This document shows, in pieces, positions 27,402 to 31,451 of a stretch of 59,350 nt of DNA. Under the pieces are notes generated by a model. It saw only the letters and a list, made by a program, of their open reading frames with translations. It did not search any database and was not told where the DNA came from. Source of the stretch: Alphaproteobacteria bacterium (GTDB lineage: Bacteria > Pseudomonadota > Alphaproteobacteria > Acetobacterales > Acetobacteraceae); contig JAPLOI010000012.1 of the NCBI GenBank assembly GCA_026400815.1, positions 1 to 59,350 of the forward strand. Direction: 5' to 3'. Each line of letters starts with the position of its first letter. Positions within the stretch are counted from its first letter, which is position 1. The position numbers were made by a program, and so were the translations under genes.

Positions 27402-27416
27402 CGATTGATGCATCGG
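27402..27416. promoter_or_regulatory. Candidate PadR operator upstream of padR
   Basis: CGATTGATGCATCGG contains the palindrome GATGCATC and shares TTGATG and ATGCATC with the longer inverted repeat before the flavoprotein gene (27877-27899). It ends 22 bases before the padR start. A shared motif at both genes suggests autoregulation. Confidence 0.45.
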
Positions 27417-27438
27417 GGGGCAAGGGGTAGGATGGCGC

Positions 27439-27843
27439 ATGTCCCCGCTCCGCACCGTCCCTGCACCCCGTATCGACTATGGCTCCCGCGCCTATTGGGC
27501 GGGAACCATCAAGATGGGGCTGTCGAAATTCTTCATCCTGCGCGTGCTGCACGATGGCCCGATGCACGGCTACGACATCGCGCGCACCGTGGCGCGGGTG
27601 ACGGGCGGGTGCTGCTCGCCGACCGAAGGCACGATCTATCCGGTGCTGCGCGAGTTCGACGCCGGCGGGTTCGTGACGGTAGAGGAGGTGGTGGTGCAGG
27701 GCCGCCAGCGCCGCGTCTATGCACTGACCGAACAGGGCCGGGCCGCCTTCCGGGTGGCGCTGGAAGCCTGGATGGAGGCGACCGCCGCGCTGCAGGACAC
27801 CGGGCGGGCCTTCGCCACACCCGATGCAAGCGGGGCGTGCTGA
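27439..27843 (+). CDS. PadR-family transcriptional regulator with vicinal Cys pair
   Basis: A 134-residue repressor-type protein. The winged-helix domain is FFILRVLHDGPMHGYDIART, the recognition region PTEGTIYPVLREFDAGGFV and the wing RQRRVYALTEQGRAAF. Cys58 and Cys59 lie at the start of the recognition helix (GGCCSPTEG), where most PadR proteins have no cysteine, and a third Cys ends the chain (SGAC). Vicinal thiols at that place suggest a thiophilic metalloid such as As(III) or Sb(III) as effector; this is inference supported by the neighbouring Cys-tailed flavoprotein and ars genes. Confidence 0.85.
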   Translation: MSPLRTVPAPRIDYGSRAYWAGTIKMGLSKFFILRVLHDGPMHGYDIARTVARVTGGCCSPTEGTIYPVLREFDAGGFVTVEEVVVQGRQRRVYALTEQGRAAFRVALEAWMEATAALQDTGRAFATPDASGAC

Positions 27844-27849
27844 GACTGC

Positions 27850-27899
27850 TTGCGCCGGATACGTCACGGCTTTATACCTTGATGGTCAATGCATCAAGG
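27850..27899 (+). promoter_or_regulatory. Promoter and operator of the flavoprotein gene
   Basis: TTGCGC (27850-27855) and TATACC (27873-27878) are 17 bases apart. Overlapping the -10 end is a perfect inverted repeat CCTTGATG-GTCAATG-CATCAAGG (27877-27899), whose right arm runs into the AAGGAG ribosome site. A repressor bound here would block both promoter escape and the leader. The wording resembles the site before padR. Confidence 0.55.
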
Positions 27900-27907
27900 A
27901 GCGTGCC

Positions 27908-29284
27908 ATGGCCGAGGGCTCTCTTCCCGTCGTGATCGTGGGAGCCGGCCCGGTGGGCCTGGCGGGGGCTTCGCATCTGCTGGCGCGCGGGCTTTCGCCG
28001 CTGGTGCTGGAGGCGGGACCGGAGGTGGGGCACGCCGTGCACGCCTGGGGCCATGTGCGGATGTTCTCGCCCTGGCGCTACAACACCGATGCGGCATCCC
28101 GCGCGCTGCTGGAGGCCGAGGGCTGGGCGGCGCCAGACCCGGAGGCCTATCCGACAGGGGCCGAGCTGGTGCGGGACTATCTCGCGCCGCTGGCGGCAAC
28201 ACCGGCACTGCGCGGACGGATCCGTACTGGGGCGAAGGTGGTGGGCATCGCCCGGCGCGACCATGGAAGGCTGCATGACGGCGCCAGCCGGGACGCGGCG
28301 CCCTTCGTGGTGCATGTGGAGGAAGGCGGCGCAATGGAGGCGCTGGAGGCGGCGGCGGTGATCGACTGCTCCGGCACCTGGGGCGCGCCCAACCCGGCCG
28401 GGGCGCATGGCATGATGGCACCGGGCGAGGCAGCGCAGGGCGCGCGCATCGCCTATGGCATTCCCGATGTGCTGGGCACGGCATGCGCCACCTATGCCGG
28501 CGCCACCACGATGGTGGTGGGCGCCGGGCACTCCGCGATGAACGCGGTGCTCGATCTGGCAACGCTGGCGGAGCAGGCGCCAGGCACGCGCATCCTGTGG
28601 GCGTTCCGGCGGCCGCTGGACGCGGTGAATTTCGGTGGTGGGGCGCGTGACGGGCTGGCCCAGCGCGGCGAGCTCGGCAGCCGGGCGCAGGCGCTGGTGG
28701 AAAGCGGGGCGGTGACGGCGCTGGCGCCGTTCCTGATCGACCGCATCGCGCAGGACGGCGCGGCGCTGGTGGTGGCGGGCCGGCAGGAGGATCGCACGGC
28801 CGAGGTGCGGGTGGACCGGGTGATCGTGGCGGCCGGGTTCCGGCCGGATCTTTCGTTCCTGCGCGAGATCAGGCTGTCGCTCGATCCCGCGGTGGAGGCC
28901 ACGCCGGCGCTGGCGCCGCTGATCGACCCGAACCTGCATTCCTGCGGCACCGTGCGCCCGCATGGCGAGGCGGAGCTGCGCCACCCGGAGGCCGGCTTCT
29001 GGATCGCCGGCTTGAAGAGCTATGGTCGTGCGCCGACCTTCCTGATGGCCACCGGCTACGAACAGGTGCGCAGCATCGCCGCCGCCCTGGCAGGGGACTG
29101 GGTCGCGGCGCGGGAAGTGCATCTGGAACTGCCGGAAACCGGTGTGTGCTCCACGGAGCAGGTGGCGGAGGCCACTGGCAGCTGCTGCGGCCCGGCGAAG
29201 CAGCCGGTGCTGGTGGAAGTGGCCGCCACGGCAGGGTGCTGTGCGCCGGCGCCGAAGCCGCAGGCCAAGGGCTGCTGCGGCTAA
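27908..29284 (+). CDS. FAD/NAD(P)-dependent flavoprotein with C-terminal Cys-pair tail
   Basis: A 458-residue flavin-monooxygenase-like protein. The FAD loop is VVIVGAGPVGLAGASHLL (residues 8-25); the NAD(P) loop is MVVGAGHSAMNAVLDL (202-217); IVAAGFRPDLSFL (306-318) is an ATG-like motif. After residue 405 the chain is a flexible tail with C414, C426-C427, C444-C445 and C456-C457 (GSCCGPA, GCCAPAP, GCCG at the end). Related flavoproteins such as ArsO occur in ars operons, but none is proven to act on arsenic in this form. The tail looks like a metalloid binding or delivery site. AAGGAG precedes the ATG. Confidence 0.8.
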   Translation: MAEGSLPVVIVGAGPVGLAGASHLLARGLSPLVLEAGPEVGHAVHAWGHVRMFSPWRYNTDAASRALLEAEGWAAPDPEAYPTGAELVRDYLAPLAATPALRGRIRTGAKVVGIARRDHGRLHDGASRDAAPFVVHVEEGGAMEALEAAAVIDCSGTWGAPNPAGAHGMMAPGEAAQGARIAYGIPDVLGTACATYAGATTMVVGAGHSAMNAVLDLATLAEQAPGTRILWAFRRPLDAVNFGGGARDGLAQRGELGSRAQALVESGAVTALAPFLIDRIAQDGAALVVAGRQEDRTAEVRVDRVIVAAGFRPDLSFLREIRLSLDPAVEATPALAPLIDPNLHSCGTVRPHGEAELRHPEAGFWIAGLKSYGRAPTFLMATGYEQVRSIAAALAGDWVAAREVHLELPETGVCSTEQVAEATGSCCGPAKQPVLVEVAATAGCCAPAPKPQAKGCCG

Positions 29285-29287
29285 GGG

Positions 29288-30484
29288 TCAGGCCGCCCGG
29301 CCAAGGCGGCGCAGCAGCCAGAGCCCGAAGAGCAGGAACGGGGCGACGTGGCCGAAGGCCAGCGCCCAGCCCCACACTGTCTCGCGGCCGAACAGGTCCA
29401 GCGCCCAGCCGGCGGCCAGCGGGCCCATGAAGCCGCCGGCATAGCCGCACATGGAATGCAGCCCCATCGTGGCGCCGCGGCGCCCGGGCTCGGCGGCCTG
29501 CACGGTGCCGGCGGTGAGTGCCGAACTGTCCAGGAAGATCGCGGCGTACCAGGCGAGCACGGCGAGTGCCGCGAGCGGTGCGGAGAAGGCGATCGAGGCG
29601 CCGACGCCGAGTGACAGCAACGCGCCGGCGGCGGTGGCCAGGCTGACCACGCGCATCCGGCCGAGGCGGACCGACAGCTCGTTGCCGGTGAGCGAGACGG
29701 CGATGCCGAGCAGGCCGGCGAGTGCGATCAGCACGCTGGGCGCCGGCAGCCAGGCGGGGGCGCCGTGCACCGCCACCGCCACGGTGAGGAACGTCACACC
29801 CCAGGCGCGAACCGCCGCCATCTCCCAGGTGTGGAAGGTGTAGCCGGTGATCCAGGCCATGGCGGCGCGGTTGCGCAGCACTGGGCGGAAATCGAGCAGG
29901 CCGGCGGGGGCCGGGCCTTCGCGCGGCGGAACGCTGCGGGGCATCACGGCGAAACCGATGGCGAAGGCGCCGCACGCCGCGGCGAAGCAGAACAGGAAGG
30001 CGGCATTCGGCCCGGCCAGCGCATCGAGCCCGCCCGCCACGAGGAAGGAGGCAGCGCCGGAGACGCCGACGCCGGCGGCATGCCAGCCCACGGCGCGGGC
30101 CTGGGCACCGCCGCTGAGGCGATCCGCCAGCACCTTCAGCCCCGGCATGTAGCAGCCGGCCCAGCCGATGCCGGCCAGAGCACGCAAGGCGAGGCCGGTC
30201 CAGAACCCGTCCGCCACCAGCATGAAGCCGAGATGCGACAGCGCGGTGCAGGCGGTGCCGAACAGATACACGCGGCGGGCGGGAATGCGGTCCGTCAATG
30301 CCACCAGCACGGGCACGGCGGCGACGTAGCCGGCGAAGAAGATGCCCAGCATCCAGCCGGCCTGGGCGGAGGAGAGTTCCCAGCGTTCGATGAAGCCGGG
30401 CAGCAGTGCGGCCAGGGCAAAGGCGCCGATCTGCGCCAGCACCTGGGCCGCCACCACGGCCAGGGCGAAGCCTTTCTGGGTCAT
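29288..30484 (-). CDS. MFS transporter, candidate metalloid exporter
   Basis: A 398-residue major facilitator with about 12 helices; the loop 2-3 motif is ALTDRIPARRVYLFG, and helix 4-5 includes GIGWAGCYMPGLKVLADRL. It converges with the flavoprotein gene (three bases between stops) and diverges from the arsR-arsC gene, so a shared control region is possible. No acr3 or arsB is present, which makes this gene a candidate for export of the As(III) made by the ArsC domain, comparable in role to ArsK. Sequence alone does not show the substrate. Few cysteines are present in the helices. Confidence 0.75.
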   Translation of the reverse strand: MTQKGFALAVVAAQVLAQIGAFALAALLPGFIERWELSSAQAGWMLGIFFAGYVAAVPVLVALTDRIPARRVYLFGTACTALSHLGFMLVADGFWTGLALRALAGIGWAGCYMPGLKVLADRLSGGAQARAVGWHAAGVGVSGAASFLVAGGLDALAGPNAAFLFCFAAACGAFAIGFAVMPRSVPPREGPAPAGLLDFRPVLRNRAAMAWITGYTFHTWEMAAVRAWGVTFLTVAVAVHGAPAWLPAPSVLIALAGLLGIAVSLTGNELSVRLGRMRVVSLATAAGALLSLGVGASIAFSAPLAALAVLAWYAAIFLDSSALTAGTVQAAEPGRRGATMGLHSMCGYAGGFMGPLAAGWALDLFGRETVWGWALAFGHVAPFLLFGLWLLRRLGRAA

Positions 30485-30575
30485 GCCGGCGCCATGTTGT
30501 TGCGCCGGCAGCCTAGCCGGGCCGGCCGCGGCGGCAAGGGCCTGTCATGGAACTGTCGCTTGGCAGGCCCCATGA

Positions 30576-30593: not shown

Positions 30594-31451
30594 ATGGAAT
30601 TGGATGATGCCGCACTGGCCTACGCTGCCCTGGGGCAGCCAACCCGGCTGGAGCTGCTGCGGCTGCTGCTGCGGGCCGGACCCAACGGGATGGCGGCGGG
30701 CGGGATCGCGGCAGGGATGGGGGTGCCGCCCTCCTCGCTGTCGTTCCACCTTCGCGCGCTGGAGCAGGCCGGGCTGATCCGGCCCACGCGGCAGGGGCGC
30801 AGCCTGATCTACGCCGCCCAGCTGCTGCGGCTGCAGGCGGTGCTGTTGTACCTGGCAGAGATCGCGCGGGATGGGTTTTCCGGCGGGCACGGCGACCTTG
30901 CTGCCACGCTCGACACCCTATCGGGAGATGCCGCCATGTCCTCACCCTCGGCCTTTCATGTGTTGTTCCTGTGCACCCGCAACTCGGCCCGCTCGATCCT
31001 GGCCGAAGCAATCCTGGCGCGGCTGGCGCCCGGGCGCTTCGTGGCGCATTCGGCGGGCTCCATGCCCTCCCCCGAGGGGCCGATGCCGGAGGTGCTGGCG
31101 CAGCTGAAGGCGCTGGGGCACGACGTGTCGGCGCTGCGCTCCAAATCCTGGGACGAGTTCCAGGGGCCGGGGGCGCCGCGGATGGATTTCGTGATCACGC
31201 TTTGCGACATCGTGGCCGGGCAGGTGTGCCCGGATTTCGGCACCACCACCGTGACCGCCGCCTGGCCGCTGCCGGACCCGGCGAAGTTCAACGGCAGCGC
31301 CGCCGAGCGCGCCACGCTGCTGAACGAGCTGTATGCAGGACTGCGGCGGCGGCTGGAGGCGTTCATGGCGCTGCCGCTGGCAACGCTGGACCGGATGTCT
31401 CTGCAGGCGCGGATCGACGAGCTGGCCGATCCCAATGTGAGGATGAAGTGA
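30594..31451 (+). CDS. ArsR-family regulator fused to arsenate reductase (ArsC, LMW-PTP type)
   Basis: A 285-residue fusion. Residues 1-105 are an ArsR winged helix ([45 protein letters not shown]). Residues 118-285 are a low-molecular-weight phosphatase-type arsenate reductase: [10 protein letters not shown] (Cys127, Arg133 of CX5R), then [18 protein letters not shown] with Cys204 and Cys212 for thiol relay. The ArsR part has no cysteine, so the classical ELCVCDL site is absent. ATG 30936 (Met115), with GGGAG eight bases before it, could start a free ArsC. It is followed after two bases by the GAPDH gene. Confidence 0.88.

Follow-up and report, generated by a model that had tools for sequence, protein, structure and literature searches.

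The window that we analyzed, which is the whole 59,350-bp stretch of JAPLOI010000012.1 and one contig of a 5.1-Mb genome, carries in tandem a gene for a small PadR-family regulator and a gene for a flavoprotein that we regard as a candidate ArsV, with 64 bp between the two (Table 1). The flavoprotein gene is met by a convergent MFS transporter gene, an orientation that recurred in 10 of the 80 PadR loci described below; the ArsK-like gene that usually follows ArsV is absent from the window, as it is from loci L042, L044, and L045. Farther downstream is a gene whose product fuses an ArsR-type regulator to an ArsC-like domain (low-molecular-weight phosphatase), and which lies ahead of the genes for the ArsJ-associated GAPDH and ArsJ. 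When scanned with the matrix for the PadR operator defined below, the region near this fusion gene contained no strong site (best, 4.1 bits at position 30575).

Table 1. Features of the padR–flavoprotein locus and its surroundings in the window (a dot marks features given without strand).
Feature	Position	Strand	Description
Operator-like dyad before padR, ATGCATCGGGGGGCAAGGGGT	27408..27428	.	11.6 bits, third-best 21-mer of the window; matrix derived from PadR–ArsV gaps only
padR	27439..27843	+	134-aa winged-helix regulator of the PadR family; invariant vicinal Cys pair
Cys58–Cys59 codons	27610..27615	+	Turn of the helix-turn-helix, directly ahead of the recognition helix
Cys134 codon (C-terminal)	27838..27840	+	C-terminal part contains one or more Cys in 76/80 relatives, none in 4/80
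Main operator (predicted), ATACCTTGATGGTCAATGCAT	27874..27894	.	21-bp dyad between padR and the flavoprotein gene; 30.4 bits, best of the window
Perfect 8-bp inverted repeat of the original prediction, CCTTGATG-N7-CATCAAGG	27877..27899	.	Overlaps the operator and the ribosome site
Candidate arsV	27908..29284	+	FAD/NAD(P)H flavoprotein, 458 aa
Cys-rich flavoprotein tail	29147..29281	+	C414, CC426–427, CC444–445, CC456–457
MFS gene	29288–30484	−	Convergent to the flavoprotein gene; not ArsK by model
ArsR–phosphatase fusion gene	30594–31451		Downstream of the padR–flavoprotein pair
ArsJ-associated GAPDH gene	downstream		NF033735, 538.6 bits
arsJ	downstream		NF033734, 516.4 bits

The regulator matched PF03551 with E = 2.6e-19 and a score of 69.4 bits, well above the gathering score of 27, which places it in the PadR family; at E ≤ 0.001, no other gene of the genome matched PF03551. 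Its matches included no ArsR-type model (HTH_5 or HTH_20) from Pfam or NCBIfam, and with the Rv3488 model it scored 40.2 bits against a cut-off of 140. An AlphaFold model (mean pLDDT 87.1) predicted helices at residues 44–54 and 63–76, the latter being the recognition helix, followed by strands at 79–86 and 89–96 and a helix at 98–125, thereby giving a winged helix with a C-terminal helix; the top Foldseek matches of this model included LmrR and Rv3488. The cysteines of the translated sequence are C58, C59, and C134, the last of which is the final residue of the protein, just as the original prediction had it. The vicinal pair had been placed at the recognition helix itself, and although the pair is present, the model puts it in the turn just before that helix, where a bound metalloid could plausibly shift the recognition helix. 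Methylarsenite needs two thiolates and arsenite needs three, which makes a two-cysteine core attractive for methylarsenite and makes the C-terminal cysteines possible third ligands.

Relatives of the regulator were collected by scanning a genome collection, and among the best 80 of the 228 found, C58–C59 was kept in all 80, a count that is partly selected because one of the two scan patterns required CC. In 77 of these 80, the flavoprotein gene was the next marker gene after padR, the three exceptions being L069 (ArsK-like), L112 (ArsK-like MFS), and L092. Thus, both the neighborhood and the cysteine pair, on whose conservation in homologs the original prediction had staked itself, are conserved. 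An ArsK-like transporter gene directly followed the flavoprotein gene in 55 of the 80 loci, and another classical ars marker fell within the DNA examined in 38 of them. The closest named relatives in this set were Acetobacteraceae/Rhodospirillales metagenome genomes and Roseomonas-type bacteria.

A search of 200 genomes of the window's family, which was not selected for CC, returned 28 strong matches, scoring at least 180 bits and spread over 25 genomes, along with 15 weak matches of no more than 54.3 bits. We examined 25 of the 28 strong loci, including that of the window, and found the cysteine pair in 25/25 and a flavoprotein gene on the same strand in 23/25; of the two loci lacking the flavoprotein gene, L025 has an ArsK-like gene and L032 has neither. 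Across the class, matches occurred in 12 of 385 genomes. The 11 strong places, in 10 genomes, all encoded the pair, and eight had the flavoprotein gene next, with the others having an ArsK-like gene (L133), a GST-like gene (L142), or an unresolved stretch (L143), whereas both of the weak places lacked CC. These counts imply that the cysteine pair is more constant than the target. At the level of the phylum, 3 of 398 genomes had a match at E ≤ 1e-25, all in the window's class and including the window's own genome, and the one PadR with a cysteine pair (CC-PadR) found outside the class was in Cupriavidus. The search of plasmids also returned, from Sphaerotilus, a PadR relative (38%) whose annotated neighbors include no ars genes.

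An unsupervised motif search of the gaps between padR and the flavoprotein gene identified a 21-bp dyad, ATRCATCGA-N3-TCGATGYAT, before the flavoprotein gene in 55 of 57 non-redundant gaps, with a log-likelihood of 763, as compared with 65–73 in shuffled sets. (The set started from 77 gaps, of which eight were left out as too short and the remaining 69 were thinned to 57; the window was excluded from training, and the gaps without a site, L073 and L114, are both counted in the 57.) A symmetric matrix applied at a threshold of 12 bits recovered a site in 54 of the 57 gaps, and on unseen DNA it placed a site scoring 12 bits or higher upstream of padR in 78 of the 80 relatives, compared with 0.19% of shuffled regions. 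Outside of the gaps and the regions upstream of padR, just three sites of at least 14 bits occurred in 1.0 Mb. Both operator sites were weak in L138/L185 (13.5 and 10.4 bits). Similar palindromes also precede the genes of PadR relatives without CC (15.5–20.9 bits in L139 and L140, 18.1 bits in L166, and 12.7 bits in L167), which suggests that this type of operator is probably older than the cysteine pair.

When all 59,350 bp of the window were scanned with the operator matrix, the three best 21-mers all fell in or at the edge of the two gaps that precede padR and the flavoprotein gene, and 60 simulated windows contained on average 0.45 sites when the lowest of these three scores was taken as the threshold and none at 30 bits. 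The predicted main operator is the only zero-mismatch match to the consensus pattern in the 5.1-Mb genome, and because its 21-mer is shared by two of the training relatives (L043 and L048), only the padR-side site counts as an independent prediction. The padR-side dyad has an intact left arm and a degenerate right arm, with two mismatches to the consensus, as at ~40 other places in the genome, and its worn right arm suggests that autoregulation may be weak in the window's lineage.

These sites bear out the observation, made in the original prediction, that a similar motif precedes both genes (TTGATGCATC at 27405 before padR). The perfect inverted repeat reported before the flavoprotein gene is likewise present, but its register was perfect in 0 of 54 relatives, in which a mean of 2.9 of 8 positions paired in that register versus 5.6 of 8 at the conserved center; we therefore rejected this repeat as the operator, the conserved dyad being centered 4 bp away. 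The further claim that the repeat sits on a −10 element did not hold up: TATACC and TTGCGC are possible in this one sequence, yet neither element was conserved in the 54 relatives, and the sigma-70 −10/−35 reading was set aside for want of conservation. What the 54 relatives do share is a T-rich tract, together with a G located 6 bp ahead of the dyad site.

The flavoprotein matched PF13738 (E = 3.4e-13) and has motifs for binding FAD and NAD(P)H (GAGPVG, residue 12; GAGHSA, residue 205), both largely conserved in the alignment. Its cysteines, at residues 154, 193, 346, 414, 426, 427, 444, 445, 456, and 457, are distributed unevenly, with seven in the last 45 residues versus three in the first 413, and the ending of three CC pairs plus one more cysteine that had been described for it is exact by this list. 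C346, C414, and C427 were invariant in an alignment of 14 diverse members. At least one CC pair was found in the tails of 69 of 72 PadR-linked flavoproteins (after 5 of 77 were left out because their tails were unreadable), and the same was true of 8/8 relatives at plasmid loci without PadR, which rules out the CC tail as a hallmark of the PadR unit.

With regard to its name, the flavoprotein is 52% identical to one encoded between arsR and arsK in Ensifer adhaerens E-60. The gene order arsR–flavoprotein–arsK is found at locus L008, and relatives elsewhere come after arsR and before an ArsK or MFS gene in ars islands. ArsV was reportedly found in Ensifer adhaerens ST2. Passages in papers that describe or cite it present ArsV as a flavin monooxygenase that oxidizes methylarsenite and antimonite (PMC10080717, PMC11719878, PMC9144182). 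Because of the ArsR–flavoprotein–MFS setting and these descriptions (PMC10080717, PMC11719878), ArsV is the best name, and on the strength of gene context and what the citing papers say, we treat the flavoprotein as a candidate ArsV and thus a putative methylarsenite/antimonite oxidase. We also tried ArsO as a name and rejected it, in that the NF040505 model gave only 47.5 bits against a cut-off of 425, and the identity to ArsO of Streptomyces FR-008 was 27%. The FR-008 plasmid that carries ArsO also carries a relative of the window's flavoprotein.

The cysteine pair and the flavoprotein gene went together in a control that started from PF03551 (30 of 59 places examined, from 60 genomes of the family, at loci of ~3.2 kb): CC-PadRs lay beside the flavoprotein gene in 6/6 cases and PadRs without CC did so in 0/24 (Fisher p = 1.7e-6). 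A class-wide search that started from the flavoprotein yielded 21 places in 20 genomes, one of which (L194, a contig-end fragment without the start of the gene) was left out. The PadR-type loci had an operator in 6/6 cases (13.5 to 32.8 bits), whereas the 14 loci without PadR had no operator site above 9.6 bits, and in 11 of these 14 an ArsR-type gene lay directly upstream of the flavoprotein gene. At the eight plasmid loci without PadR, no operator was found near arsV (best in the upstream gap, 7.9 bits among the top sites listed); two of these loci, L006 and L008, did have stray sites, of 18.1 and 14.0 bits, away from arsV.

In a quick tree of the flavoproteins (106 rows thinned to 81), the label 'PadR or other', in which 'other' is not always ArsR, changed six times, compared with a shuffled mean of 19.5. 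At least three of these changes were forced by starred branches, with gains and losses being indistinguishable. In a tree of the PadR proteins (123 rows thinned to 41, with a warning from the program of long branches), the CC-PadRs made up one side of a branch with support of 99/98 (18 versus 23 rows). Our strongest argument that CC-PadR does the job of ArsR is that regulators are exchanged at a single enzyme gene and that the operator appears and disappears together with PadR; the sequence comparisons as a whole make it close to certain that CC-PadR regulates the flavoprotein gene.

Other genes also appear to be targets of CC-PadRs. An ArsK-like transporter gene comes directly after PadR at L025, L069, L112, L133, and L141, and the ArsK-like genes of L002 and L141 scored 242.5 and 238 with the ArsK model, below its cut-off of 400. 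On plasmid pRK1-4 of Cupriavidus basilensis, an ArsP_1 permease gene (PF03773, E = 9.9e-56) comes after the CC-PadR gene, and each of the two has an operator site ahead of it (25.0 bits for PadR, 27.0 bits for the permease); with a Cu/Zn exporter model the permease also reached 106.6 bits, short of the cut-off of 300. Behind these two genes (L003:10327-10596) is a gene for an 89-amino-acid protein without a family match, which consists of three repeats of CC and then RIEEV or RIEKV and is possibly a small metalloid-binding protein. At L142:2593-6881, a CC-PadR with the variant GCCTPREG and with operator sites precedes a GST-like protein ending in CC, and further downstream are an aminotransferase and an SDR protein, both named from reading the sequence, as well as an ArsO-like flavoprotein. 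As judged by these features, L142 is a different target set for the same predicted switch.

Together, these results lead us to favor, with good though not full confidence, a model in which padR and arsV constitute a self-contained, autoregulated detoxification module and a cysteine-switched PadR repressor senses a trivalent metalloid, doing the job of ArsR. The notion of a self-contained regulator–enzyme unit beside arsenic genes, already put forward in the original prediction, is well supported by the two predicted operators and by the ars setting across relatives. According to this model, a PadR dimer would bind the 21-bp dyad before its own gene and the stronger one before the flavoprotein gene, and as the conserved sites suggest, the bound protein would keep expression of both genes low. 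Trivalent arsenicals or antimonite would likely be sensed through C58–C59, with the pair binding a trivalent, thiol-loving metalloid (most likely methylarsenite, antimonite, or arsenite) and the C-terminal cysteines often helping to bind it. Binding would distort the helix-turn-helix such that the operator is released, and the induced candidate ArsV would then use NAD(P)H, FAD, and oxygen to oxidize the trivalent compound to a less toxic pentavalent form, with its CC tail possibly serving to capture the substrate.

Vicinal thiols bind many soft metals, and the PadR protein Rv3488, a structural match of our PadR model, is said to be linked to cadmium, both of which would fit a thiol sensor of broad range, responsive to other soft metals or to electrophiles (Hg, Cd, Zn, copper, quinones, or oxidants), for which the ars neighbors would be incidental to a broader stress response. 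Also favoring such a sensor are the presence of chrA nearby in 2 of the 80 loci, the PadR and operator preceding the CC-ending GST-like protein at L142, and the score of the Cupriavidus ArsP_1 target with the Cu/Zn exporter model (106.6 bits, cut-off 300). However, ArsV is next in 77 of the 80 loci and an ArsR-type gene lies upstream at 11 of the 14 PadR-less ArsV genes, both of which point to arsenicals, and we consider the broader specificity unlikely, though not negligible.

Lower still in our estimation is the possibility that the ligand of the regulator is a small organic molecule bound in the pocket typical of PadRs and that the cysteine pair is structural or forms a redox disulfide, as adjacent cysteines rarely do. 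The PadR model does match LmrR, and LmrR-like PadRs bind aromatic drugs according to the titles of the structural matches, but the pair separates ArsV-linked PadRs from others (6/6 versus 0/24) and is invariant in the partly selected set of relatives (80/80), such that we find an organic ligand improbable. Some copies of padR and the flavoprotein gene reside on plasmids among transposases, and the two might merely hitch-hike together in mobile ars islands with no regulatory link. Nonetheless, most units have two conserved operators, none was found in the gap at PadR-less ArsV genes, and the operators are kept by CC-PadRs that are 56–94% identical to the window protein, all of which makes mere hitch-hiking barely credible.

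A broader proposal, which goes beyond the padR–arsV module and for which we see the case as evenly poised, is that PadR repressors independently evolved a dedicated sensor for trivalent arsenicals or antimony, with an operator of its own and with a two-thiol site in the turn of the helix-turn-helix that best suits methylarsenite-type ligands, for which two sulfurs suffice, and that this sensor has repeatedly traded places with ArsR-type regulation at arsV and governs arsK-like and arsP-like genes besides. If so, PadR repressors would have solved the ArsR problem a second time, with a one-component winged-helix protein unrelated to ArsR, and a type of sensor that we did not find described would control arsenic and antimony resistance genes in part of the Alphaproteobacteria, with a scope of 25 of the 200 genomes searched in the window's family and 10 of the 385 searched in its class. 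Annotation of PadR genes in ars islands could then rely on just two marks, the motif GCCSPxEG and the 21-bp dyad; biosensor design would gain a compact sensor with two thiols; and padR–arsV would exemplify in nature how one family of regulators takes over from another at a single enzyme gene.

Our searches of the open-licence literature for PadR together with arsenite, ars operon, organoarsenical, metalloid, or arsenic showed no PadR arsenic sensor among the papers listed, and a search joining PadR-family with vicinal cysteine found nothing. In passages of papers that these searches returned, PadR appeared in an integron chrA–padR and in a predicted protein interaction with a PadR-like protein.

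With respect to known systems, the window's flavoprotein resembles ArsO as a related flavoprotein with two dinucleotide-binding regions and weak similarity. It resembles ArsV, as judged by context and by published descriptions of that enzyme, in that ArsV is a flavoprotein found beside an ArsR-type gene and an ArsK or MFS exporter in ars islands, but the regulator here is a PadR. This regulator shares its fold (by Foldseek) and its family (PF03551) with the PadRs Rv3488 and LmrR, and unlike the other PadRs that we examined in the bacterial family, in which the cysteine pair was absent in 24/24, it has the pair. Like members of the ArsR/SmtB family, it is a small winged-helix regulator beside the same enzyme gene. 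ArsR has conserved cysteines near its DNA-binding helices, whereas the window protein belongs to the PadR family (PF03551) and has its cysteine pair in the turn before the recognition helix, and the 21-bp dyad, which is missing from the ArsR-type ArsV gaps, is present in the PadR-type gaps.
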